NCBI RefSeq assembly: GCF_009833095.1
Contig: NZ_QRCB01000001.1
Span: 248,001 to 312,000, forward strand
Direction: 5' to 3'
DNA: 64,000 nt
Source of the DNA: Nitrosomonas sp. JL21
Lineage (GTDB): Bacteria; Pseudomonadota; Gammaproteobacteria; Burkholderiales; Nitrosomonadaceae
The translations under genes and the position numbers were made by a program. Shown here one piece after another: positions 1 to 13,156 of this stretch (the first letter of the stretch is position 1; the number at the start of each line of letters is the position of its first letter). Under the pieces are notes generated by a model, which was not told the origin of the DNA, did no database searches, and worked only from the letters and a program-made list of their open reading frames with translations.

Positions 1-824
1 ATTGGAATATCCCGATTGCCAATACCACGGTCATTTTATTAGGTACCGGCACTTCGATCACGCAAGCGGCAGTACGTATGCTGGCATCGACCGGTGTTTT
101 GATCGGTTTCAGTGGTGGCGGTGGCACGCCACTATTGGCCGCCAGTGAAATTGAATGGCTCACGCCGCAGAGCGAATACAGGCCGACCGAATACGTCCAA
201 GGATGGCTGTCATTCTGGTTCGATGCAGCGAAACGATTGCAGGTTGCCAAACACTTCCAACTTATGCGCATCGATTACCTGCAAGACGTATGGCGCAAGG
301 ATAAGGATTTAAAAAATGAGCGCTTCTTTTTCGATGACCAAGATATCACACAGGCGTTCTCAGGTTTTTCAAACAAAGTTGAGCAAGCGAACAATGTCAC
401 TGAATTATTGTTGATCGAAGCGCAACTCACCAAAAACCTCTACAAAATTGCTGTCAGCCGAACCCAGCAAAAAGATTTCGTGCGTAATTACGACAGCACC
501 GACAGCGCAAATGCTTTTCTCAATCACGGTAATTACTTAGCCTATGGATTAGCTGCGACCACACTTTGGGTACTGGGCATTCCGCACGGCTTTGCCGTGA
601 TGCACGGAAAAACCCGCCGTGGTGCATTGGTGTTCGACATCGCCGACCTCGTCAAAGATGCCATCGTCCTGCCTTGGGCTTTCGTTTGCGCCAAAGAAAA
701 AATGAGCGAACAGGAATTCCGCCAGCAAATCCTGCAAAAATTTACCGAGCATAAAGCCATGGATTTCATGTTCGAGCAGGTTAAAGAGATTTGTATTAAG
801 TATAAAAATTTAACTACGTTTTAA
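1..824 (+). CDS. cas1: CRISPR-associated endonuclease Cas1, type I-F (5' end outside window)
   Basis: Cas1 is the metal-dependent integrase that, with Cas2 (here fused to Cas3), inserts new spacers next to the leader. The open frame starts before base 1: codons from base 3 read WNIPIANTTV and continue without a stop to TAA at 822-824, so about 273 residues are visible and roughly the first 50 are missing. The segment LLGTGTSITQAAVRMLAS followed by GFSGGGGTPLL is typical of type I-F Cas1, as is the later stretch FLNHGNYLAYGLAATTLWVLG and the metal-site-like HGKTRRGALVFDIADL. An ATG at 78 is internal, not the start. It is the first gene of the I-F operon, but unlike many I-F loci it is separated from cas2-3 by 252 bp that hold a mini-CRISPR. 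The stop codon itself overlaps the protospacer of that element. Confidence 0.93.
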   Translation, partial: WNIPIANTTVILLGTGTSITQAAVRMLASTGVLIGFSGGGGTPLLAASEIEWLTPQSEYRPTEYVQGWLSFWFDAAKRLQVAKHFQLMRIDYLQDVWRKDKDLKNERFFFDDQDITQAFSGFSNKVEQANNVTELLLIEAQLTKNLYKIAVSRTQQKDFVRNYDSTDSANAFLNHGNYLAYGLAATTLWVLGIPHGFAVMHGKTRRGALVFDIADLVKDAIVLPWAFVCAKEKMSEQEFRQQILQKFTEHKAMDFMFEQVKEICIKYKNLTTF

Positions 825-829
825 TAGGG
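811..829 (-). promoter_or_regulatory. Protospacer with CC PAM targeted by the mini-CRISPR spacer
   Basis: On the minus strand, bases 826 down to 813 read TATTAAAACGTAGT. The mini-array spacer at 999-1012 reads TATTAAAACGTTGT: 13 of 14 identical, the only mismatch being position 12. Immediately 5' of the protospacer the minus strand reads CCC (829-827), which supplies the CC PAM of type I-F. Pairing fails at all of positions 15-19, so the match ends where the shortened spacer should end. The site covers the cas1 stop codon. The sequence -10-like TATAAA lies just upstream at 801-806, so a bound complex could block a local cas2-3 promoter or stop read-through from cas1; which of these applies is inference. 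Confidence 0.75.
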
Positions 830-956
830 TAAAGTTTATGTTAAGATTGCTTTGGTTAAATACCACAGGAGTCTTGATGCATGCTGAAGCGCATTCTTTG
901 TTTTTTTGATACTTATTTTGCTCTTTGTTTATTCGAGCTCGGCATATTAGCAAAAC

Positions 957-962
957 TATGAT
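957..962 (+). promoter_or_regulatory. Candidate -10 element in front of the mini-CRISPR
   Basis: TATGAT matches the sigma-70 -10 consensus at 5 of 6 bases and would start transcription near 969-971, exactly at the first degenerate repeat. No good -35 hexamer is visible at the right distance, so this is only a candidate. The bases that follow (ATTAAATTCT then CAGT) resemble the end of the main array leader (TTAAATATTC...CAGT), suggesting that the mini-array came from a leader-proximal copy. Confidence 0.35.
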
Positions 963-970
963 TAAATTCT

Positions 971-1040
971 CAGTACTGCTGTACAAGCAGCTTAGAAATA
1001 TTAAAACGTTGTATTTACTGCCGCACAGGCAGCTTAATTT
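971..1040 (+). CRISPR. Degenerate two-repeat mini-CRISPR (CreR-like regulatory guide RNA)
   Basis: Two diverged copies of the I-F repeat flank a very short spacer. Repeat 1 (971-998) has stem CTGCT, loop GTACA, stem AGCAG, then an intact 8-nt 5' handle CTTAGAAA at 991-998. Relative to the array stem CTGCC/GGCAG the last pair is changed on both sides (C-G to T-A), so the hairpin survives. Repeat 2 (1013-1040) has an intact stem CTGCC, loop GCACA, stem GGCAG, but its handle has decayed to CTTAATTT. Cas6f cleavage after each stem would release one 42-nt RNA (991-1032) with handle, guide and 3' hairpin. Handle-to-hairpin distance is 19 nt against 37 in the main array, i.e. 18 nt or three Cas7f footprints shorter. 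Only the parts needed for one mature crRNA are conserved. Family knowledge: CreR RNAs steer Cascade to repress cas genes; function here is inferred. Confidence 0.85.
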
Positions 1041-1076: not shown

Positions 1077-4000
1077 ATGATGGTCACCTTCGTCAGCCAA
1101 TGCGAGAAAAAAGCGCTCAATCGCACCCGGCGGGTATTGGATGCTTTCGCCAATCGTATCGGCGACAACACATGGCAAACCGTGATCACGGAAGAAGGAT
1201 TGATCGCTGTCAAAACCCTGCTACGCAAAACCGCAACCAAGAATACCGCCGTAGCCTGCCATTGGATCAGATCGCGAAGCCGCAGCGAGTTGGTTTGGAT
1301 TGTAGGGAATCGCAAGCGGTTTAATGCTGAAGGAGGTGTACCTGTAAATAGCACCAAAAAAGATTTGAGTCATCGTGAATGGGAAAAAGGTTGGCATACA
1401 ACTGAAATTATCACTACCGCTTCGGCAATTGCAGGTTTGTTCCATGATCTTGGCAAAGCAAATGATTTGTTTCAGGACAAATTGAATCAATGTGTAAAGG
1501 AAAAAAACACAAAAAGATTCGAGCCATACCGGCATGAATGGGTATCTTTGCGAATTTTTCAAGCATTTGTTTCTGGAAGAAGTGATCAAGAATGGCTTAA
1601 GCAATTGGCCGATATTGATGAAGATTTAGAAAATCACGTTATACAAAAAATAATTATTGATAACCCTGATTCGGACAAATCTAATAATCCATTTGCTACC
1701 TTACCTACGTTTGCAAGACTAGTGGCTTGGTTGGTAGTTTCACACCATCGTTTACCTGTTTATCCTAAGCTTGGTAATACAGAACCTAGTTTTGACCAAG
1801 CTGACAAATGGCTAATCCTTTCTTTTGATGAATCTTGGAATTCGATCAATAGCCAGAACCATAAATGGGAAGAACGAATCTTAAAAGCTAATTGGACATT
1901 CTCTTATCGTACCCCACTGGCAAGCAAAACCTGGCAAAAAAGGGCTAGCGAACTGTCAAGGCGAGCTTTAATTTGCCCAGGTTTGATGAAAGTTGATTGG
2001 TTTTGCCAACCGTTTGTTATGCACTTGTCGCGTCTGGCCCTGATGCTTGCTGATCATCACTATTCCGCCAAAGACGCACAAACCCGTTGGCAAGATAGCA
2101 ATTATCAAGCTTTTGCCAATACCAACGAGCAACGCCAGCCTAAACAAAAACTGGATGAGCACAATGTTGGTGTAAGCCAGCACGCTTTTGAATTCTCTCT
2201 TAAATTTCGGCGTTTGCGCGAAGAATTGCCATCGCTTAACGACAACAGAACATTAACCAAAGGCCCGGAAGAAGATAAAGAGCCTTGGCAAGTAAAAGCC
2301 TATCAAGCAATGCAACAGATTCAGAGTCAGGCTAAAGAGCAAGGTTTTTTCGGTATCAATATGGCTTCGACCGGAAGAGGTAAAACCTTGGCAAACGCCA
2401 GAATCATGTATGGTTTAGCTGATGAGTCAGAAGGCTGCCGCTTTAGTGTTGCCTTGGGTTTACGGACATTAACCTTGCAAACGGGCGATGCGTTGCAAGA
2501 ACGCTTGAAACTCGATAAAACGGATATTGCTACGCTGATCGGTTCTCAGGCCATTCTGCAGTTGAACCAAATCAATCAAGGTAAACAAACCGAAGATGGC
2601 TTGTTTGCCATGCGCGGTAGCGAAAGCTTGGAGTTGGGTTTGGATGATGACGGATTCGACGTCATCTATAACACCGAATTCTACGAAGGACAATTGGAAA
2701 AGTGGTTTCCAAACAATAGAAAAGCGAAGAAACTGCTCCATGCGCCCATATTGGTTAGCACAATTGACCATTTAACACCTGCCACGGAAGGCGTTCGAGG
2801 CGGAAGACAAATTGTACCGATGTTACGTTTACTGACATCGGATTTGGTCCTAGATGAGCCTGATGAATTTGACCTAAATGACTTGCCTGCACTGACTCGC
2901 CTGGTAAATTGGGCTGGCATGTTGGGTGCAAAAGTATTGTTGTCTACGGCAACCATGCCACCTGCACTGGCTTATGCACTATTTGAAGCCTATCAAGAAG
3001 GGCGGAAAGCATTTAACACCGCTACCAACCAAGCAATTACAAAAAAATCCGTTGTCTGCGCTTGGTGTGATGAATTTAGTGTGCAGGTGTCAGAACAAGA
3101 GAATATTCAGAGCTATATCAAAGCTCATGATGAATTCATTCAAAAACGCATTACCAAGCTGAATCAAGACAATTCGATTTTCCGCAAAGCAAAATTGCTG
3201 GAAATTGCTGCCACAACTGATCTACCACCGCTCAACACTATGAGCGTGGTAATCCGTCAGGGCATGGTGGCTTTGCATCAAGGTCATCACCAACAACACG
3301 CGTCGGGTAAAAAAGTCTCTATCGGTTTGGTGCGCATAGCCAATATCAATCCCTTAGTAGCCATTGCCAAGCTGCTTTATACCTATCCTGTACCGGAAAA
3401 TTTCCGTATCCATTACTGCATTTATCACAGCCAATACCCTTTGGCACAACGGGCATTCATTGAAAGTAAATTAGACCAAGCCCTCAACCGTAAAGATCAA
3501 GAAGCCATTTGGAATTGCCCTGAAATTCAACACGCATTAAGCCATTATCCAGAGCAAGACCAGATTTTTGTGGTATTGGCAACCTCGGTGGCGGAAGTCG
3601 GGCGTGACCACGATTACGACTGGGCGATTGCTGAACCCAGTTCCATGCGCTCAATCATTCAAATCGCCGGACGCATACAGCGGCATCGTAAACAAGTACC
3701 GGAAACTGAGAATTTTTATATTCTGGCTAAGAACTATAAAGCTTTAAAAGGAAAAGAGCTTGCCTATGAAAAACCTGGATTTGAATCAAAGCATCGAAAA
3801 CTACGCAGCCATGATTTAGATGAAGTACTGAATAACCAGCAATATGCAGTACCACGCGCTACACCAAGCATCTTTTGTCCTCCCCTGAACAAAGAAAGCA
3901 GAAAGCCACCGTTCCAAAATCTAGTTGTTCTGGAGCACATGGCATACCGTGAAATATTGTTAGGCGATAACGAACAACAGAATAACGCTCGCATCTGGTG

Positions 4001-4385
4001 GAAAAACCAGGTGTCATGGTGCGCCGAAATCCAGCGCAAGCAACCTTTTAGAGCGTCCTCACCTGATCAAGCGTATTGCCTTTATCTCGAAGCGGATGAT
4101 GATAAACCTATTTGGCAAATCAAAAACGAAAATGTTAGTCCCTCAAAATATGAAACCACAACGGATATTGTGAATATTGATTTAACTCCAGCTAATGGTA
4201 ATCAGCCCTGGTTTGACTTTGATCTTCAAGATCAATATGGGTATTTAGCGGAACAGTTTGAAAAATCTTTGAAATATATCAGCTATTGTTTTGGCGAAAT
4301 ACGTTTGCCCGACTATGAAAATCAAATAAATGAATGGTATTACTCCCCAATGCTTGGGGTTTTTAGAGAGATTAGAAAGGAGTAA
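1077..4385 (+). CDS. cas2-3: Cas2-Cas3 fusion: nuclease-helicase of type I-F CRISPR
   Basis: This 1102-residue protein is the signature I-F fusion of Cas2 (adaptation) with Cas3 (HD nuclease plus SF2 helicase that degrades DNA once the Csy complex has bound). Residues 1 to about 85 match the Cas2-like domain (FVSQCEKKALNRTRRVLDAF, then NTAVACHWIRS). The HD nuclease motif HDLGKA is at residues 123-128. The helicase Walker A is STGRGKT near 431-437 and the DEAD-type box LDEPDEFD near 591-598. LLSTATMPP fits motif III and the C-terminal part carries SVAEVGRDHDYD and QIAGRIQRHR (motifs V and VI). The start ATG follows AAGG at 1062-1065, a weak ribosome site. The stop is 4 bp before csy1. Expression may be controlled by the mini-CRISPR just upstream. 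Confidence 0.96.
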   Translation: MMVTFVSQCEKKALNRTRRVLDAFANRIGDNTWQTVITEEGLIAVKTLLRKTATKNTAVACHWIRSRSRSELVWIVGNRKRFNAEGGVPVNSTKKDLSHREWEKGWHTTEIITTASAIAGLFHDLGKANDLFQDKLNQCVKEKNTKRFEPYRHEWVSLRIFQAFVSGRSDQEWLKQLADIDEDLENHVIQKIIIDNPDSDKSNNPFATLPTFARLVAWLVVSHHRLPVYPKLGNTEPSFDQADKWLILSFDESWNSINSQNHKWEERILKANWTFSYRTPLASKTWQKRASELSRRALICPGLMKVDWFCQPFVMHLSRLALMLADHHYSAKDAQTRWQDSNYQAFANTNEQRQPKQKLDEHNVGVSQHAFEFSLKFRRLREELPSLNDNRTLTKGPEEDKEPWQVKAYQAMQQIQSQAKEQGFFGINMASTGRGKTLANARIMYGLADESEGCRFSVALGLRTLTLQTGDALQERLKLDKTDIATLIGSQAILQLNQINQGKQTEDGLFAMRGSESLELGLDDDGFDVIYNTEFYEGQLEKWFPNNRKAKKLLHAPILVSTIDHLTPATEGVRGGRQIVPMLRLLTSDLVLDEPDEFDLNDLPALTRLVNWAGMLGAKVLLSTATMPPALAYALFEAYQEGRKAFNTATNQAITKKSVVCAWCDEFSVQVSEQENIQSYIKAHDEFIQKRITKLNQDNSIFRKAKLLEIAATTDLPPLNTMSVVIRQGMVALHQGHHQQHASGKKVSIGLVRIANINPLVAIAKLLYTYPVPENFRIHYCIYHSQYPLAQRAFIESKLDQALNRKDQEAIWNCPEIQHALSHYPEQDQIFVVLATSVAEVGRDHDYDWAIAEPSSMRSIIQIAGRIQRHRKQVPETENFYILAKNYKALKGKELAYEKPGFESKHRKLRSHDLDEVLNNQQYAVPRATPSIFCPPLNKESRKPPFQNLVVLEHMAYREILLGDNEQQNNARIWWKNQVSWCAEIQRKQPFRASSPDQAYCLYLEADDDKPIWQIKNENVSPSKYETTTDIVNIDLTPANGNQPWFDFDLQDQYGYLAEQFEKSLKYISYCFGEIRLPDYENQINEWYYSPMLGVFREIRKE

Positions 4386-4389
4386 TTTA

Positions 4390-5886
4390 ATGGAAAACCA
4401 ACAGGTAATTGAAGTGATCGAGGCATTTTTTCAACGAAAAAAAGAACCTGGTTTAGAAAAAATAGTTAAAGAAGCCGTGAAGATTTGTGGTGAAAAAATC
4501 GCCAAGTCATCCGAAAGCCAAGAAATTAAAGATCAAGTCAAGGCATTGCTCGACTCGAAAAAACCTAAAGAACAAAGCACACTGAACAATATTCAGGAAA
4601 AGTACACGCAATTGCTAAATTTAAGCTATCAAAATCCGGTTTTTTTGAGTGATGTAAAAAGCGACACCGCAAAAAGCATCCTGGCATTAGATGAAAAGTT
4701 TAGTCCCAACCATTGGCTTGTCGATGCATCAAACAAAGCCAGTGGTGTGGTTTTAGATGTAACCCACATTTCTAAACTGACCCATTCCAGTGCGAAAGCT
4801 TCAAATTTCAATGCATTAGTTTTTGGAACGCAACAACCAAAAACACTATTGATCACTGCCAATTTTACCGGAAAGATACCAATAGATTTTGCTTATTCAA
4901 CGGCGGAATATGCCCCCATTGCCGAATTTTTGCAGCTAGATTGTGCAGGCCAAATGTTGGGAAAAATACTATGTAACAACCCTGCCGCCTTAAAACCGTT
5001 TGCCCAGAATGATGCACAGCTCCAACAATGGCAAGAGCAATTTAGCTTAGCCTTTAACGAAAAAAACAAATCCAGTCATATTTTGGCTAAGCAAGTCTAT
5101 TTCCCATTGACTTCAGCAACCAGTTATCACTTATTGACGCCTCTGACTTCATCAAGTTTGGCGCAAATCATTTATGACCGTATTTGGGAAGCACGCCGAA
5201 AAGATACACCCGTAAATAAAGCTAGAGCTGAAAAAACTTTTAGTTCAGAAGTGGTTAGGTCGTTCCATAGAACCGCCGTATTAAAAACCACCCAAACCAA
5301 CCATCAAAATGTTTCCAATTTGAATGGCAAACGTGCGGGACAATTAATCTTATTACCCACCATCCCACCACAATGGCAAACTCAAACCAAGCCGCCTATT
5401 CACTTAAAAACCTTATTTAATAAACAACTGGCCGCTCAAGCCAAAGAACCGCTAGCAGAACTCAAGAATTTATTGTTGGCCATTAAGGCCAACAAACTCA
5501 GTGTAAATCTACAGCGTAAGCAACTCATCCACAGCCATCTCATTGAGATTGCCAATGTAGTGTTCGATTATGCATCTCAGATTCAGGGGCTTAAACACCA
5601 CATGGGTTGGTCAGAGGAATCTCAATTGCCAGCTCATCAACAATACTGGCTAGACCCTTTAAGGCCGGATGAAGAGTTTCAAGCTGCGAAAGCTACGCTG
5701 GATTGGTCAAGCGACGTGGTGGTCGATTTTTCCAAATGGATAAACCGGCACATTAAACACAAACAACTCACACTAGGCGCCGCCCACGAGAAACAGTGGC
5801 AAAAACTGTTTACGCCCTTGTTACGCGAATTTAACGCACTAGCCGAAGCAGATTTAGAAATCAGCACAAGAGAGGATAAAGCATGA
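4390..5886 (+). CDS. csy1: Cas8f / Csy1, large subunit of the Csy surveillance complex
   Basis: At 498 residues this fits Csy1, which with Csy2 forms the tail of the I-F complex, holds the crRNA 5' handle and reads the CC PAM. The gene lies in the fixed I-F order between cas2-3 and csy2. The start ATG at 4390 has a strong AAAGGAG about 8 bp upstream, so an upstream in-frame ATG at 4330 inside cas2-3 is not used. The stretch LVDASNKASGVVLDVTHISKLTHSSAKASNF, here cited only in part as THISKLTHSSAKASNF, and the C-terminal SEESQLPAHQQYWLDPLRP are typical of the family. Csy1 diverges fast, so single PAM residues cannot be assigned by eye. The stop overlaps the csy2 start by 4 bp (ATGA), indicating coupled translation. 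Confidence 0.93.
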   Translation: MENQQVIEVIEAFFQRKKEPGLEKIVKEAVKICGEKIAKSSESQEIKDQVKALLDSKKPKEQSTLNNIQEKYTQLLNLSYQNPVFLSDVKSDTAKSILALDEKFSPNHWLVDASNKASGVVLDVTHISKLTHSSAKASNFNALVFGTQQPKTLLITANFTGKIPIDFAYSTAEYAPIAEFLQLDCAGQMLGKILCNNPAALKPFAQNDAQLQQWQEQFSLAFNEKNKSSHILAKQVYFPLTSATSYHLLTPLTSSSLAQIIYDRIWEARRKDTPVNKARAEKTFSSEVVRSFHRTAVLKTTQTNHQNVSNLNGKRAGQLILLPTIPPQWQTQTKPPIHLKTLFNKQLAAQAKEPLAELKNLLLAIKANKLSVNLQRKQLIHSHLIEIANVVFDYASQIQGLKHHMGWSEESQLPAHQQYWLDPLRPDEEFQAAKATLDWSSDVVVDFSKWINRHIKHKQLTLGAAHEKQWQKLFTPLLREFNALAEADLEISTREDKA

Positions 5887-6899
5887 GTAATGCCTACATC
5901 GTTTTTGAGCGTATCAGCGTTCAAGATGCCAATTGTATTGCCGGATTTATCTATGGATTTCCAGCCATTACCCATTTTTTAGGCTTTGGCCATGCCTTGT
6001 CCAGAAAACTAACAGTCAGTCGGCAATTGACTTTGCAAGGCTGTGCCGTCATTTGCCATCAGCACCAAATACACGCCTACCAGCCTAAAGGCTACGGTGA
6101 TTATGTCTTTGCCCAAAGCAAAAACCCACCCACTACCAGAGCCAAGGCTAAAGAAACACCGCCTATTATCGAGGAGGGCAAAATGGATATGACGGTTTCC
6201 TTGATCATGGCTTGTCCTGATTTGAGGATAAGCCGGACGGCTGAAATTAACACCCTAGCGCAAAACATCATGAACTTGGCATATCAACATCGCTTGGCGG
6301 GTGGCTCTATTCAAAACATTGCCGCCATTCATATACTCAATAAAGATGAGCAAAAGCTGTTGAGAGCATTCAAAAGCTTGCTACTGCCTGGATTTGTGTT
6401 GATGGATCGATCCGATTTATTGGCTAGTCACTATGAGACGCTGAAACAGCAGCAATCCGATGTAGAGTTAGTAGATGCCTGGCTGGATTTTTCCGCACTT
6501 AAATATCAAGCCAAGCCAAAACTCAAAGAAGGTGAACTTGAGCCTACCGAAAAAACTGAAGCCGAATGGTTACGCATGGATAAGCCGGCCAAAGGCTGGC
6601 TCGTGCCTATCACCAATGGTTACAAAGCAATAAGCGATGTTTATGCTGTTGGTGAAGTGGCGAATGCACGTGATACGACCACTCCTGTTTGTTTTGTAGA
6701 GACCAGCCACAGCATAGGCGAATGGCGGAGCTTGCACCGTATTCAACAAGTTGCTGACATGCTTTGGCATTACCGCTACGAACAAGACTGGTACTTGTGC
6801 TGCCAAGAAGGACAGACTCAGCCGCAATCCGCGACGAATGTATTAGAAGGTGTTGTGGATGATGATTTTGAAGACGATTTTTTGTGTTCACTTAATTAA
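5883..6899 (+). CDS. csy2: Cas5f / Csy2, crRNA 5'-handle binding subunit
   Basis: Csy2 (Cas5f) is a RAMP protein that caps the crRNA 5' end together with Csy1. The 338-residue product begins MSNAYIVFERISVQDANC and has the characteristic early block GFPAITHFLGFGHALSRKL, where the I-F family shows a conserved G-P-A-(I/M)-xx-F-xx-L-H pattern. The C-terminal segment with YKAISDVYAVGEVANARD and VETSHSIGEWRSLHRI is also typical. The start overlaps the csy1 stop in ATGA, and the stop is 10 bp before csy3. It is cotranscribed with the rest of the Csy genes. Confidence 0.93.
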   Translation: MSNAYIVFERISVQDANCIAGFIYGFPAITHFLGFGHALSRKLTVSRQLTLQGCAVICHQHQIHAYQPKGYGDYVFAQSKNPPTTRAKAKETPPIIEEGKMDMTVSLIMACPDLRISRTAEINTLAQNIMNLAYQHRLAGGSIQNIAAIHILNKDEQKLLRAFKSLLLPGFVLMDRSDLLASHYETLKQQQSDVELVDAWLDFSALKYQAKPKLKEGELEPTEKTEAEWLRMDKPAKGWLVPITNGYKAISDVYAVGEVANARDTTTPVCFVETSHSIGEWRSLHRIQQVADMLWHYRYEQDWYLCCQEGQTQPQSATNVLEGVVDDDFEDDFLCSLN

Positions 6900-6909
6900 G
6901 GAGAAGATA

Positions 6910-7905
6910 ATGACTGATAAACCAACTAGAACGAATGCATTGGCGCTACCCTCGGTATTAGCATTTAGCCGTAAATTGGAAGTTTCCGATGCATTAATGG
7001 CGTCAGGCTTATGGACTGACATCGATAAGATCGAGAAATGGCAATCGATTGAATTACATGAAAAAAGAAACCGGGCTACCCATAGTCAATATGGCGCAAA
7101 AGATGAAGACAAACCGAAGCCCAATCTCTCTTGGGGTGACGTTGCTACGTTACCTCATGGTGCCGATACTTTACGGATCAAATTCACCTTAAAAATTTTA
7201 GGAAGTCTTGAAAAGCCTACCGCCTGCAATTCGCCAGTGTTTGAAGCAAAGATCATTCAAATTGTGGAGAGTTATCGTAATGAGCATCAATTTAAGGAAT
7301 TGGCTATCCGCTATGCTAATAATATTGCCAATGGACGGTTTTTATGGCGTAACCGTGTCGGTGCAGAGTCTATCAGTATTCAGGTAAAACATCGTGAACA
7401 GAGCTGGCAATTTAACGCTTACGATTACAAACTCGATCAATTTACATCACCAGATGATGACGATCATTCATTTGCTCAATTGGTTTCCGTAATTCAAAAA
7501 GGCTTACAAGGCGATGGTTTTGAGTATTTAGAGATTACTGCATTCAGTAAACTTGAGTTTGGGCAGCCTGTATTTCCGTCACAAGAAATGGTACTTAATC
7601 CTCCCAAAGGTGAGAAGTCGAAATTTTTATTCCAATTAAGTAGTTGCGCTGCCATGCATTCGGAAAAAATTGGTAATGCTTTACGTACCATTGATACTTG
7701 GTACGCAGAGGATGACAAAGCTAGAGCAATAGCCATCGAGCCATACGGCTCTGTTACTTCGCGGGGAGAGGCACATCGGATTTCAAAAAATGATTTTTAT
7801 ACGTTGCTTCAAAAATGGTTAAAGGACGAAGTGATTTCTGCCATACAGCAACATTACGTTATTGCGACGTTAATTCGCGGAGGTGTATTTGGAGGCAATG
7901 AGTGA
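6910..7905 (+). CDS. csy3: Cas7f / Csy3, backbone subunit of the Csy complex
   Basis: Csy3 polymerises along the crRNA spacer, one subunit per 6 nt, six copies on a 32-nt spacer. The 331-residue product matches the family's usual length and begins MTDKPTRTNALALPSVLAFS; the pattern LPSVLAFxRKLxxSDA is a hallmark of I-F Cas7. Other typical blocks are FLWRNRVGAESISI and EVFPSQEMVL-like GQPVFPSQEMVL. The start ATG at 6910 is preceded by AAGGAG; an ATG at 6850 lies inside csy2 and would add an unrelated tail. The 6-nt footprint is relevant to the mini-CRISPR, whose guide is shorter by exactly three footprints. The stop directly abuts the cas6f ATG. Confidence 0.95.
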   Translation: MTDKPTRTNALALPSVLAFSRKLEVSDALMASGLWTDIDKIEKWQSIELHEKRNRATHSQYGAKDEDKPKPNLSWGDVATLPHGADTLRIKFTLKILGSLEKPTACNSPVFEAKIIQIVESYRNEHQFKELAIRYANNIANGRFLWRNRVGAESISIQVKHREQSWQFNAYDYKLDQFTSPDDDDHSFAQLVSVIQKGLQGDGFEYLEITAFSKLEFGQPVFPSQEMVLNPPKGEKSKFLFQLSSCAAMHSEKIGNALRTIDTWYAEDDKARAIAIEPYGSVTSRGEAHRISKNDFYTLLQKWLKDEVISAIQQHYVIATLIRGGVFGGNE

Positions 7906-8553
7906 ATGATGAAATTTTATCAAGAGCTAACATTACTTCCGCAAGAGGAGATAAACATTTATTTCCTCTGGTCCAAAACCTTCCAGCAAATCCACCTTGG
8001 TTTGGTCGAAACACAAGATGCGCAAAAACGCGTGCCGATCGGTCTATCGTTTCCCGAATACAAAATGGATGAAAAATTCGGTGTACTGGGCAGCAAGCTT
8101 CGGTTGTTTGCTCCAGACGAAGCTGCGCTGACACGGTTTGATGTCACCAAACGATTAAGCCGCCTGAGCGATTATGTGCATTGCACCGGTATCCGCCCGG
8201 TGCCTGGCGCAGTCAAAGGTTATGCCGTTTATCAGCGCGAACAACCCAAAACCGGTCGGGAACGCTTAGCCCGGCGTTATGCGAAACGGCACAACCTGGA
8301 TTACGAAACTGCGTTCAATGGTAAGGTTGAGTTGTGTGCAAAGCACGATAACGCAACCGAGCATCAAAAAATGTTGATGAGTTACAGTGAAATGCCGCAC
8401 AAAACCATCACCACCCCGTTTATCCGGCTAAAAAGTTTAAGTAGCGGTAATACGTTCTGCTTGTGGATCAAAAAAAGGGAAATAGAAAACAGCGTTAGCG
8501 GAACTTTCACCACCTATGGTTTAAGTTCTGCTGCTTCCGTACCCGAATTTTGA
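7906..8553 (+). CDS. cas6f: Cas6f / Csy4, crRNA-processing endoribonuclease
   Basis: Cas6f cuts pre-crRNA just 3' of the repeat hairpin and stays on the stem. The product has 215 residues, longer than the about 187 of the Pseudomonas enzyme. His30 in KTFQQIHLGLVE (His29 if the second ATG at 7909 is used) corresponds to the catalytic histidine of Csy4. The arginine-rich helix RERLARRYAKRHNL matches the part that grips the RNA stem. The C-terminus GTFTTYGLSSAASVPEF matches the family ending (YGLS...VP.F). Extra length sits around residues 140-170 (for example HDNATEHQKMLMSYSEMPHK), an insertion before the final strands. The stem it should bind, CTGCC/GGCAG, is kept in the 74 intact array repeats and in both mini-array repeats. 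Confidence 0.94.
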   Translation: MMKFYQELTLLPQEEINIYFLWSKTFQQIHLGLVETQDAQKRVPIGLSFPEYKMDEKFGVLGSKLRLFAPDEAALTRFDVTKRLSRLSDYVHCTGIRPVPGAVKGYAVYQREQPKTGRERLARRYAKRHNLDYETAFNGKVELCAKHDNATEHQKMLMSYSEMPHKTITTPFIRLKSLSSGNTFCLWIKKREIENSVSGTFTTYGLSSAASVPEF

Positions 8554-8685: not shown

Positions 8686-11600
8686 GTTCGCTGCCGCGCA
8701 GGCAGCTTAGAAATGTAAGTCACAGATTTTATAAGATTTTCCTTCGTTCGCTGCCGCGCAGGCAGCTTAGAAAAGAAACGTTGACGCGGTCGACGCCCTC
8801 AAAGTGTTCGCTGCCGCGCAGGCAGCTTAGAAACCAGCCGTGTAACCCACACTCGCGCTAAAAAGGTTCGCTGCCGCGCAGGCAGCTTAGAAAAGTCTGA
8901 GTTTAGCGATGCGCGCGGAATTGCAGTTCGCTGCCGCGCAGGCAGCTTAGAAAACTTAAAAAAGCCGGCTTGTTGCGAAATTAACGTTCGCTGCCGCGCA
9001 GGCAGCTTAGAAAAATTGCCAGCGAAAACGATAACTAAAATTGTAGTTCGCTGCCGCGCAGGCAGCTTAGAAATATAAAAACAATAATTTATGACTGTAA
9101 AGTGAGTTCGCTGCCGCGCAGGCAGCTTAGAAAAGCGGCACCTCAAGGTAAAATTTAATGTCGCCGTTCGCTGCCGCGCAGGCAGCTTAGAAATCAGGCG
9201 CTGCATCGGCGCTGACACCCTCAGAGTTCGCTGCCGCGCAGGCAGCTTAGAAATTTCGGCCCGGTCGACAACCAGCCGGGACAGCGTTCGCTGCCGCGCA
9301 GGCAGCTTAGAAACTGAGGGTGTTGACTGCCCAAGTGGAAACCGTAGTTCGCTGCCGCGCAGGCAGCTTAGAAAGCCTCGTTATCGTCAAAGTCGTGTAA
9401 CACGATGTTCGCTGCCGCGCAGGCAGCTTAGAAAGTATGACTGTACAGCGGTCTCAGCAAACGATCGTTCGCTGCCGCGCAGGCAGCTTAGAAATGGAGA
9501 TGGCGCGGACGCCGCACCAGGAATACGTTCGCTGCCGCGCAGGCAGCTTAGAAAGATAGCGTCAAACAGCAAATCATCAAGGATGAGTTCGCTGCCGCGC
9601 AGGCAGCTTAGAAAAAGCGACTTAGTGCCGGCCATTATATTTTCGCGTTCGCTGCCGCGCAGGCAGCTTAGAAAGCCAAGTGGCAGAGGCGCAGATCCTT
9701 GTTGAATGTTCGCTGCCGCGCAGGCAGCTTAGAAAAATTACCGAAACGCTTATAGTATTCGCCAAGCGTTCGCTGCCGCGCAGGCAGCTTAGAAATGCCC
9801 GAGCCGATACTGAACCAGATCAGGCGAGTTCGCTGCCGCGCAGGCAGCTTAGAAAAGCAATGCAAACACCGTACAAATCTTCATTTTGTTCGCTGCCGCG
9901 CAGGCAGCTTAGAAAAGTTCAATACAGAATGAAAGACAGGCCAAAGAGTTCGCTGCCGCGCAGGCAGCTTAGAAAAACATATTGGACATCCCATGTCATT
10001 CCTTGCTGTTCGCTGCCGCGCAGGCAGCTTAGAAATTTGATATGAATCGAAAGGGTAGGTAGTTGCAGTTCGCTGCCGCGCAGGCAGCTTAGAAATTTGC
10101 GTGTATTCATATCAAAAGAAATTGATAGTTCGCTGCCGCGCAGGCAGCTTAGAAAAAATCTTCATGATCCAACCATGGCAAATCTGAGTTCGCTGCCGCG
10201 CAGGCAGCTTAGAAATGGAGCAGAGTATTCCTTCACACCTTTTGGAGGTTCGCTGCCGCGCAGGCAGCTTAGAAATAAAAAAATTAGGAACATTTGTGAG
10301 CGTTAGAGTTCGCTGCCGCGCAGGCAGCTTAGAAACAGCAAATGATCAGCAAGGGAAAGGTGCAGGCTGTTCGCTGCCGCGCAGGCAGCTTAGAAACGTA
10401 ACCGCCACAAAGACCATAGCATCAGGAAGTTCGCTGCCGCGCAGGCAGCTTAGAAATTCGATCAGATCAGATTCTTTTACTCCAGACCGTTCGCTGCCGC
10501 GCAGGCAGCTTAGAAATGGTATCGTGGAAATGCAAATCCTCGATCATAGTTCGCTGCCGCGCAGGCAGCTTAGAAACAGGACAAATCGTGCTCTAGCAAT
10601 GCATCTATGTTCGCTGCCGCGCAGGCAGCTTAGAAAAGGTGAAGGGGCTACCGCACCGGCAGTCATAAGTTCGCTGCCGCGCAGGCAGCTTAGAAAATAT
10701 GCAAAACTTGATGAACCGATGGAACTGAGTTCGCTGCCGCGCAGGCAGCTTAGAAATTTCCTTAGCCTCATTCTCGTGTAACTTTAATGTTCGCTGCCGC
10801 GCAGGCAGCTTAGAAAAATGTAATCACTGGAACCGGATTCAAACTTGAGTTCGCTGCCGCGCAGGCAGCTTAGAAAAACTCAAAAAAGCAGGGTTGCTTA
10901 AATAATGTGTTCGCTGCCGCGCAGGCAGCTTAGAAAACCAAGACCACATGCGGCGTGCGTTTTTCAGAGTTCGCTGCCGCGCAGGCAGCTTAGAAATTAT
11001 ACGATCTAATCTCAACAATCCTGCCAGCGTTCGCTGCCGCGCAGGCAGCTTAGAAAACTTCAAAGATGGAGGAAGTCATTTTGAATGGGTTCGCTGCCGC
11101 GCAGGCAGCTTAGAAACAAAGAAATCAAAGAACTTGTCGAAGATTTATGTTCGCTGCCGCGCAGGCAGCTTAGAAACGTAATCGCACTTGAGTCTGTAAC
11201 GCTCGATCGTTCGCTGCCGCGCAGGCAGCTTAGAAAAGCATACACGAGATTATGATAGGGTGGTATACGTTCGCTGCCGCGCAGGCAGCTTAGAAAGACA
11301 GCATGATGCGTTTTCTGTGGCAATTTAAGTTCGCTGCCGCGCAGGCAGCTTAGAAAATAAATACGAACCAAGAAGTTCCCGATTCGCCGTTCGCTGCCGC
11401 GCAGGCAGCTTAGAAAAGCAGAGAAAAGCTGTGCGCGAGTTGCCGATGGTTCGCTGCCGCGCAGGCAGCTTAGAAAAAAATTAGCGCACGTTTTTAATTT
11501 ATACGATAGTTCGCTGCCGCGCAGGCAGCTTAGAAAAGGAGAAGCCGCCCCTATTTTGACGAGTTTTCGTTCGCTGCCGCGCAGGCAGCTTAGAAAATAG

Positions 11601-13156
11601 TTCAGGCGTATATTTGCACCACTCCAATGTTCGCTGCCGCGCAGGCAGCTTAGAAAGCTATGATTAATTTTTCCATCATTTTTTCAACGTTCGCTGCCGC
11701 GCAGGCAGCTTAGAAAAGTTGCCGCTGCGCGGCGTTGGGCGGCCATTTGTTCGCTGCCGCGCAGGCAGCTTAGAAATGTATTTTTAGGCGTTTCGGGGAA
11801 AGTAATCTGTTCGCTGCCGCGCAGGCAGCTTAGAAAGAAAGCCTGGATGATCGCGCAAACACTCAAAAGTTCGCTGCCGCGCAGGCAGCTTAGAAATTTG
11901 GGTGCGCGCGTTTTTGTTCTATCAAATAGTTCGCTGCCGCGCAGGCAGCTTAGAAAATAAAATTGTAACTCTTTATTTTTTCTAACATGTTCGCTGCCGC
12001 GCAGGCAGCTTAGAAATTTAAGATAATCGACCATACTCGATTGCAAACGTTCGCTGCCGCGCAGGCAGCTTAGAAATAAGGTCTGTTAGTCGTTCGCTGG
12101 CTGTTGCTGTTCGCTGCCGCGCAGGCAGCTTAGAAAATAACGGTATACTTTCCCACATAATATATTCTGTTCGCTGCCGCGCAGGCAGCTTAGAAAATAT
12201 ACGGTAATTACAAAAGATGGGAAAGAACGTTCGCTGCCGCGCAGGCAGCTTAGAAAGCTGTCACGACAGCTTCCGCTTGTGAATCCATGTTCGCTGCCGC
12301 GCAGGCAGCTTAGAAAGAAATCAACGGTAATGGTTGAATCGTTGCTGGGTTCGCTGCCGCGCAGGCAGCTTAGAAATGGGGTTATCGATTCAACTGATGC
12401 GCCACCTGGTTCGCTGCCGCGCAGGCAGCTTAGAAAGATCAGCCCACGCCTTTGCCTCGGACTTGGTGGTTCGCTGCCGCGCAGGCAGCTTAGAAATCCC
12501 GCCTGATATGAGAACACTTGGTACTTATGTTCGCTGCCGCGCAGGCAGCTTAGAAAAAACAGTTAACCAGCCCGCTCAGCAGCAACGAGTTCGCTGCCGC
12601 GCAGGCAGCTTAGAAAACTCCAAACGGATCTACATAATGCGCAGAAAAGTTCGCTGCCGCGCAGGCAGCTTAGAAAGATAAATAACCGATTTTTCTACAA
12701 ATATCTGCGTTCGCTGCCGCGCAGGCAGCTTAGAAACTTTTCCTGGAAGTTTATATGATGTATTCGACGTTCGCTGCCGCGCAGGCAGCTTAGAAATTCA
12801 GATCTGTATCGTCTTTTCGCTGCTGTACGTTCGCTGCCGCGCAGGCAGCTTAGAAAGACTGCTGTTTCTATTTCTCCAAAATCCCACCGTTCGCTGCCGC
12901 GCAGGCAGCTTAGAAAATCTGTGGCGCTGCACTGCTGCTGATATTGTTGTTCGCTGCCGCGCAGGCAGCTTAGAAATATAACTGATTGGAGGCCCTTATA
13001 ATGTCGCTGTTCGCTGCCGCGCAGGCAGCTTAGAAAAGATTAGTTCTGAAACTTCTACCAACTACACGGTTCGCTGCCGCGCAGGCAGCTTAGAAAGGAG
13101 ACAGAACCATTTAACGAAAAAGGATAACGTTCGCTGCCGCGCAGGTGTAGTTCAGA
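8686..13156 (+). CRISPR. Type I-F CRISPR array, 75 repeats and 74 spacers
   Basis: The 28-bp repeat starts GTTCG, carries the hairpin CTGCC-GCGCA-GGCAG and ends in the handle CTTAGAAA, the classical I-F layout. Repeats occur every 60 bp, giving 32-nt spacers, except three 33-nt spacers: number 11 (9314-9346), 17 (9675-9707) and 28 (10336-10368). The last repeat, from 13129, matches only its first 17 bases and then diverges, marking the old, leader-distal end. I saw no mutated internal repeat by eye. The length and uniformity, together with a full cas set, point to an active system. Spacers look viral or plasmid-like in coding character, but sources cannot be named without searching. Long open frames across the array are repeat artefacts. 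Confidence 0.98.

Follow-up and report, generated by a model that had tools for sequence, protein, structure and literature searches.

The window, i.e. the whole stretch of 64,000 nucleotides that was analyzed, carries a type I-F CRISPR-cas operon. It begins inside cas1f, which is followed by cas2-3, csy1 to csy4 and then a long array of ordinary build, the repeat of which is GTTCGCTGCCGCGCAGGCAGCTTAGAAA (8686 onward). The final repeat of this array stops within its stem, at GCAGGTGTAG (window 13129-13150). Between the cas1 stop (824) and the cas2-3 start (1077) lies a gap of 252 nt, in which an earlier reading made from the letters alone (the sequence-only reading) had placed a mini-CRISPR at 971..1040; these coordinates and the length of the gap both proved right. 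The last codons of cas1, after ~783, are unlike those of gapless relatives and, from this comparison, seem to belong to the inserted stretch. The features are collected in Table 1.

Table 1. Features of the I-F locus, and of the structured RNA R1 in related loci. Positions are those of the window unless another locus is named.
Feature	Position	Strand	Remarks
cas1f	3..824	+	TIGR03637, 399 bits; 5' end before window, start in L020
Protospacer (target)	813-826	-	13/14 bases, mismatch at position 12
PAM	827-828	-	CC on minus strand, GG on plus strand
Region between target and leader	829-905	+	site of CreT in related modules; two weak mini-ORF candidates
Mini-CRISPR leader	906-970	+	holds inverted repeat; 2/65 bases differ from L113
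Repeat 1	971-998	+	CAGTACTGCTGTACAAGCAGCTTAGAAA; diverged, stem and full 8-nt handle kept
Predicted mature guide RNA	991-1032	+	42 nt, inferred from Csy4 cleavage position
Spacer	999-1012	+	14 nt, TATTAAAACGTTGT
Repeat 2	1013-1040	+	ATTTACTGCCGCACAGGCAGCTTAATTT; diverged, stem kept, handle lost
cas2-3 (cas3f)	1077..4385	+	TIGR02562, 1187 bits
csy1	4390-5886	+	TIGR02564, over curated cut-off
csy2	5883-6899	+	TIGR02565, over curated cut-off
csy3	6910-7905	+	TIGR02566, over curated cut-off
csy4/cas6f	7906-8553	+	TIGR02563, over curated cut-off
Ordinary I-F CRISPR array	8686..13145	+	28-nt repeats, spacing 60-61 nt; last repeat degenerate
R1 structured RNA	L022 1334-1478; L110 1335-1478; L214 1501-1644		
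R1 structured RNA	L055 1938-2078; L213 1501-1636	-	

Both repeats of the mini-CRISPR have diverged and both retain intact Cas6f stems, as the sequence-only reading had maintained. In repeat 1 (stem CTGCT/AGCAG), pairing is preserved through a double change from C-G to T-A, and the handle CTTAGAAA is complete; in repeat 2 the stem CTGCC/GGCAG is intact and the final four bases of the handle are missing. Both stems were present in the predicted fold of the mini-CRISPR, and the fold stability of the 70-nt element as a whole was ordinary (z -1.15). The Rfam family CRISPR-DR4 matched both repeats, with 30.6 and 26.8 bits in L001, each below its gathering score of 35. CRISPR-DR4 aside, matches to known RNA families in five of the loci were all far under gathering scores, and no tRNAs were found in six of the loci. 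With only 14 nt between its two diverged repeats, both of which lie within the gap, the element differs from a functional array unit, which has a 32-nt spacer and intact repeats.

The loop of repeat 2 reads GCACA (window 1018-1032), compared to GCGCA in the window's own array, and equals that of repeats in G1101, G027 and G1106, hinting that the module may have come from a relative. In the conserved leader, a perfect inverted repeat, TTTTGCT/AGCAAAA (916-922/949-955), flanks the palindrome CGAGCTCG, and the stretch 916-955 is a possible operator. Folding of 906-1076 as one structured RNA gave no support for such an RNA (z -0.25). A pattern of repeat pairs at short spacing was found in 6 of the 85 genomes of the genus, compared to none for a reversed-pattern control; it occurred at eight places, four of which are junction mini-CRISPRs and four of which resemble irregular units of ordinary arrays. 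This excess over the control and a near-identical copy of the element in locus L113 show that the mini-CRISPR is more than chance. A plasmid search for the same module gave no match, and the 22-mer of handle plus spacer had no exact match in viral contigs.

Csy4 cleaves at a known position in the repeat, which we used to place the ends of the guide. The predicted product consists of 8 nt of handle, 14 nt of spacer and 20 nt of repeat, in agreement with the proposal of the sequence-only reading that the unit resembles a producer of one crRNA-like guide of about 42 nt. Together with the adjoining PAM-flanked target, the arrangement of the sequence strongly supports a function of the mini-CRISPR as a Csy guide. 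In the I-F1 system of Aggregatibacter, spacer length was reported to follow L = 6N - 4, with a lower limit of ~14 nt and three Cas7 for stable Cascade (PMC7296934). The window's 14-nt spacer would fit N = 3, i.e. three Csy3 subunits. Truncated I-F1 complexes formed R-loops and did not trigger Cas2/3; each truncation weakened binding in the Aggregatibacter system, and shortening the spacer by at least 18 nt (to 14 nt or less) left no phage protection in vivo (PMC7296934). Repression by a guide of 14 nt may therefore be feeble, given the weaker binding and the in vivo failure of truncated Aggregatibacter guides. Spacers no longer than 24 bp repressed without cleavage in a type I-B archaeon, and one of 16 bp still cut transcription to about two thirds (PMC10989794). 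The locus is a natural test of the shortest usable I-F guide: its spacer lies near the reported I-F1 assembly limit, and a conserved locus appears to rely on 14 nt.

We found a target for this guide at 813-828, ~145 nt upstream of the spacer, a site that the sequence-only reading did not mention. The target TATTAAAACGTAGT differs from the spacer TATTAAAACGTTGT only at position 12, and it is flanked at 828-827 by CC, the PAM of type I-F systems (PMC10097628). The runner-up CC site in the vicinity matched 8 of 14 bases, and shuffled spacers equaled the match of the target in 1 of 20,000 permutations, in which 90 CC sites around the junction were considered. PAM plus spacer, with position 12 left free, occurred a single time in the genome (3,171,591 bases), at the target. 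When up to two mismatches were allowed genome-wide, two further places were obtained, of which one is the guide and the other lies on a different contig; at the same tolerance, a control with the pattern reversed gave 10 and 9 matches (19 places), compared to 1 and 2, one of them exact, for the true pattern. On this sequence evidence, Csy-guided binding at 813-826 is highly probable.

Two other explanations of the repeats are affected by these results. The mini-CRISPR might be what decay has left of an ordinary array, its match being accidental, and repeat 2 indeed resembles a degenerate terminal repeat, just as the spacer is AT-rich in AT-rich DNA. This explanation, which we find barely credible, was rejected on the permutation result, the sole match in the genome and the mismatch pattern described below, which recurs in independent modules; the same spacer is also present in a second species. 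Alternatively, the element might encode a decoy RNA that titrates Cas6f or Csy, in the manner of solitary-repeat anti-CRISPR RNA, since it would be a repeat-like RNA with Cas6f stems and phage decoys exist (PMC10651486). A decoy needs neither two repeats, nor a spacer, nor a conserved PAM-flanked self target in the host cas operon, and we rejected this very improbable explanation on account of the conserved self target. Similarly, Racr elements are marked by a solitary repeat within the genome of a virus or another mobile element, in contrast to the two repeats, spacer and self target in a cas operon found here.

The positions of the mismatches provided a second line of evidence. The I-F Cascade flips out every sixth base and tolerates mismatches at these positions (PMC7305327). 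For ten mini-CRISPRs, the best nearby CC-flanked site matched 10 to 13 of the first 14 bases. In nine of these guides (those of the window, L113, L022, L110, L055, L017, L213, L214 and L205, the last being the Acinetobacter LoGeW2-3 locus, used as a yardstick), 16 of the 20 mismatches within positions 1-18 fell at 6, 12 or 18, compared to 3.3 expected, a signature that was reached in 0 of 200,000 simulations. Picking the best of ~100 CC sites inflates the number of matches and gives no reason for mismatches at multiples of six. With one guide per lineage (window, L022, L055, L017, L213 and L214), 11 of 14 mismatches were at these positions, against 2.3 expected. The tenth and weakest guide, that of L045, was excluded from the headline count for its seed match of only 9 bases and its permutation result of 634/20,000; adding it gave 18 of 27, against 4.4 expected. 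The target of L017 had a permutation result of 96/20,000.

Single loci showed the same tendency. Within the first 18 positions, LoGeW2-3 has mismatches at 6, 12 and 14, and the L113 target differs from its guide at 6 and 12 only. A comparison of L022 with L110 showed three changes in the 26 bases of target plus PAM, one at position 6 and two at PAM-distal bases, compared to 8 of 28 and 9 of 35 bases in the flanks. Mismatches at 6, 12 and 18 are a signature that separates such guides from chance matches. In L045 (oriented, 1376-1464), the mini-CRISPR lies just upstream of cas3 with a 38-nt spacer and the CC-flanked seed match, and no cas1 was found there.

L113 comes from another species of the genus, and its cas locus is otherwise different from that of the window; its mini-CRISPR occupies the same junction and its spacer is letter-for-letter the same. 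The two loci differ at 94 of 524 bases in cas1 and at 282 of 609 in codons 98-300 of cas2-3. In contrast, 906-1076 differs at 3 of 171 bases, making it the least diverged of the stretches compared, and the mini-CRISPR at 1 of 70; the region 838-905 has one deletion, in a T run, and 12 differences in 68 bases. The near-identity of 906-1076 could reflect recent exchange, not selection. The nearest cas relative found, L107/L013 (from two collections, apparently one contig), has no gap and no such element, with Cas1 and the first 150 residues of Cas2-3 ~97% identical to the window's and the whole of Cas2-3 85% identical. The sequence-only reading had proposed comparing related I-F loci for conserved stems and a co-varying spacer and target; L113 keeps stems, spacer and target, and L107/L013 lacks the gap itself. 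In L007, L008, L009, L010 and others, only residues 1-97 of Cas2-3 were matched, with 84-91% identity in the four loci named, as if the end of cas1 and the Cas2 part might travel together by recombination.

We then surveyed the joint between cas1 and cas2-3 at 188 distinct places, drawn from many, not all, of the search hits and weighted towards two orders; cas1 was recognized upstream in 171. The genes overlap by 4 nt in 112 of these 171 joints, and the distance is 20 nt or less, overlaps included, in 128, from 21 to 120 nt in 6 and above 120 nt in 37 (one of which, L076, stems from a broken cas1 alignment). Among the 37 large gaps, counted when the joints numbered 172, mini-CRISPRs with repeats of this family were seen in six (window, L017, L022, L055, L110 and L113), and 21 hold homologues of TacA/GNAT, BrnT/BrnA, VapB/PIN, MazE-like/PIN or ParE, these being the only families covered, with query proteins that came from five of these same gaps and were named by Pfam. 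L017 belongs to both sets, and two further gaps hold a Bro-N protein. The mini-CRISPR counts are lower bounds, because the hairpin scan sees only repeats near this repeat family; in L214 the scan overlooked the first repeat, which has a 4-nt loop and was read by eye. These results do not support the claim of the sequence-only reading that holding a cas regulator is the reason for the gap, given the gapless L107/L013, the 4-nt overlap in most joints and the toxin-antitoxin homologues in 21 large gaps.

Toxin-antitoxin cargo with no mini-CRISPR in the hairpin scan was seen in the cas1 to cas2-3 gaps of L018, L053, L073, L074, L097, L127, L130, L131, L135, L146, L147, L148, L167, L168, L170, L178, L179, L181, L183 and L186, the cargo of these 20 gaps being of the VapB/PIN, MazE-like/PIN, BrnTA, TacA/GNAT or ParE type. 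The cas1 to cas2-3 gap of L017 (8964-9928) holds a TacA-like antitoxin and a GNAT-domain protein, immediately preceded by a mini-CRISPR with its target in front; from its layout, this looks like a CRISPR-repressed toxin-antitoxin.

Such neighboring junctions with full cargo raise the question of whether the window's module is a stripped relic, which lost a former cargo gene and whose guide now acts on little of importance. The gap in the window contains no recognized gene: a protein toxin was sought and rejected, since none was recognized in the ORF lists and three ORFs in or beside the gap (838-909 included) gave no Pfam match with an E-value of 1 or below. A relic is unlikely in our judgement, as 906-1076 has stayed far closer to L113 than cas1 has and the matching of the target was kept.

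To determine what the guide could act on, we scanned the gap for signals of transcription. A sigma-70 scan of 760-1100 gave one site, at 1054-1081, against 1.0 expected, and a canonical promoter at the target was rejected, none being above chance there; a PWM promoter scan, run without a shuffled control, gave only middling or weak sites in the window. Terminator-like sites numbered two, one per strand, against 0.2 expected, and on the plus strand the sole such site between the target and cas2-3 is the stem of repeat 2. Because this stem is terminator-like and such sites are in excess, transcription may not reach cas2-3 freely. The sequence-only reading had the Csy complex tune cas expression through this guide. 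The position of the target upstream of cas2-3 and the repeat 2 stem make this possible, while the scans brought out no promoter and a payload like that of the CreTA modules is also possible.

In the reading that we prefer, the mini-CRISPR would be transcribed and its transcript cut by Csy4/Cas6f into the ~42-nt guide, which would assemble with a shortened Csy complex of three Csy3 subunits and lead it to 813-826. There the bound complex would likely repress transcription running into cas2-3-csy, and cleavage would not be triggered. More Csy complex would mean stronger repression of cas2-3-csy and of the guide, and fewer free complexes, as in the presence of invader crRNAs or an anti-CRISPR, would bring release. 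Self-limiting feedback of this kind is likely because, on the plus strand, nothing terminator-like other than the stem of repeat 2 was found between the target and cas2-3, and because the guide lies in this interval. We put the chances that the guide brings Csy to this site in its own operon and represses transcription into cas2-3-csy without cleavage at about even, judging from the sequence, and we are evenly divided on whether cas2-3-csy is the unit that matters.

The main alternative is an addiction module like CreTA, in which the guide and Csy would repress a toxic RNA, or the RNA of a mini-ORF, at ~829-909, and loss of Csy would free the toxin. Target, PAM, payload and next cas gene follow one another as in the CreTA modules of Acinetobacter (PMC10097628), the junction often holds toxin-antitoxin cargo, and the window has mini-ORFs at 838-909 and 877-909, both weak, with SD-like stretches seen by eye. 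In addition, a structured RNA (model R1) occupies the equivalent place in L022, L110 and L055, where it extends from next to the target to shortly before cas2-3, the guide running away from it. In these three sequences, 17 of 44 pairs of R1 changed on both sides, and 92% of its cells were paired, compared to 36-45% with the partners slid, a comparison that favors R1 since the structure was derived from the same three sequences. With strict filters, the model found R1 in 2 of 85 genus genomes and 3 of 369 class genomes, two sets that overlap slightly. Each of the five copies is part of an I-F cas operon and adjoins a mini-CRISPR that has a target; two occupy the joint of cas2-3 and csy1, and in all five loci (L022, L110, L055, L213 and L214) the mini-CRISPR is divergent from R1. 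The position of R1 is that of CreT in Acinetobacter, and R1 is therefore a candidate CreT family. What this geometry serves in L022, L110 and L055 is a structured RNA and not obviously cas control.

However, the window itself fits this alternative less well. R1 was rejected as its payload, the model not being found there (best 3.0 bits, E 0.36). Region 838-905, in which a payload would lie, has diverged from L113 like the surrounding coding genes, in contrast to the mini-CRISPR; the ATG of the 877-909 ORF is ATA in L113, and the fold of 832-912 is weak (z -1.65). Furthermore, the window's guide is co-directional with the payload. An addiction module is a possibility to be taken seriously, and one that we rate below even. 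Because R1 is missing, 838-905 diverges, the mini-ORF start is lost and the sole terminator-like site is the repeat 2 stem, we prefer, with modest confidence, feedback on cas2-3-csy and the guide over a toxin.

These results add the joint of cas1 and cas2-3 as a home of regulatory guides. The sister loci tie the same design to toxin-antitoxin cargo and to the covarying R1 RNA, which in the searched genomes was found only beside such guides. Tentatively, and with some doubt, we suggest that the I-F joints (cas1 to cas2-3 and cas2-3 to csy1) dock interchangeable cargo, either toxin-antitoxin pairs or a new family of structured toxic RNA, some of it placed under Csy control via a private mini-CRISPR with mismatches at unread sixth bases; the window would be the leanest form, a guide of minimum length acting as a pure feedback switch on its own operon.

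Similar designs have been described in other systems. CreR guides, partly matching a site near their own cas genes, are reported to repress cas in types I-B, I-E and V-A (Liu et al. 2023; PMC13131331, PMC12737573). The window resembles them in that 971-1040 appears to be a degenerate mini-CRISPR encoding one crRNA-like guide, its spacer being a partial match to a PAM-flanked site close to the cas genes of its own locus, and in that no toxin gene is recognized; cas repression is reported there and predicted here. The sequence-only reading had assigned guides derived from degenerate CRISPRs to some other subtypes, which holds for the subtypes named for CreR (PMC13131331) and overlooks I-F guides of this sort that were already known (PMC10097628). 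CrePA comprises a toxin in a CRISPR locus that is repressed by a guide (Shu et al. 2025; PMC12737573, PMC13131331). From that description, L017 may belong to CrePA, in contrast to the window, in which no protein toxin-antitoxin is recognized. Regulatory mini-arrays that partly match promoters of cas or cargo genes, toxin-antitoxin cargo included, were reportedly treated by Shmakov et al. in 2023 (NAR), with one I-F1 mini-array tested; these are of a similar design, and their predictions may or may not include the locus of the window.

The closest comparison is with the I-F CreTA of Acinetobacter, which was tested experimentally in WCHA45, with predicted sisters in LoGeW2-3 and ANC3789 (PMC10097628). 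In A. baumannii AYE, CreA of WCHA45 lowered transcripts of a creT-promoter reporter about sevenfold, an effect lost without Csy4 (PMC10097628). As there described, CreTA shares with the window two diverged elements that resemble repeats and carry Csy4 stems, a spacer with a partial match, a CC PAM and a nearby target in the cas operon, and the design of mini-CRISPR, partial PAM-flanked target and Csy-guided repression is in this respect already known in I-F. The Acinetobacter module lies between cas3 and csy1, its guide gene is divergent from the toxin gene, and a toxic RNA was shown in WCHA45 (PMC10097628); its spacer is 20 nt in WCHA45 and, by our own count, 31 nt in LoGeW2-3. In the window, by contrast, any toxin is putative and the mini-CRISPR is on the plus strand, like everything downstream of the target. 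Our literature check covered open papers and we claim no priority for the locus; its particular features, relative to CreTA, are the joint of cas1 and cas2-3, a guide running in the direction of the payload and a spacer of 14 nt.
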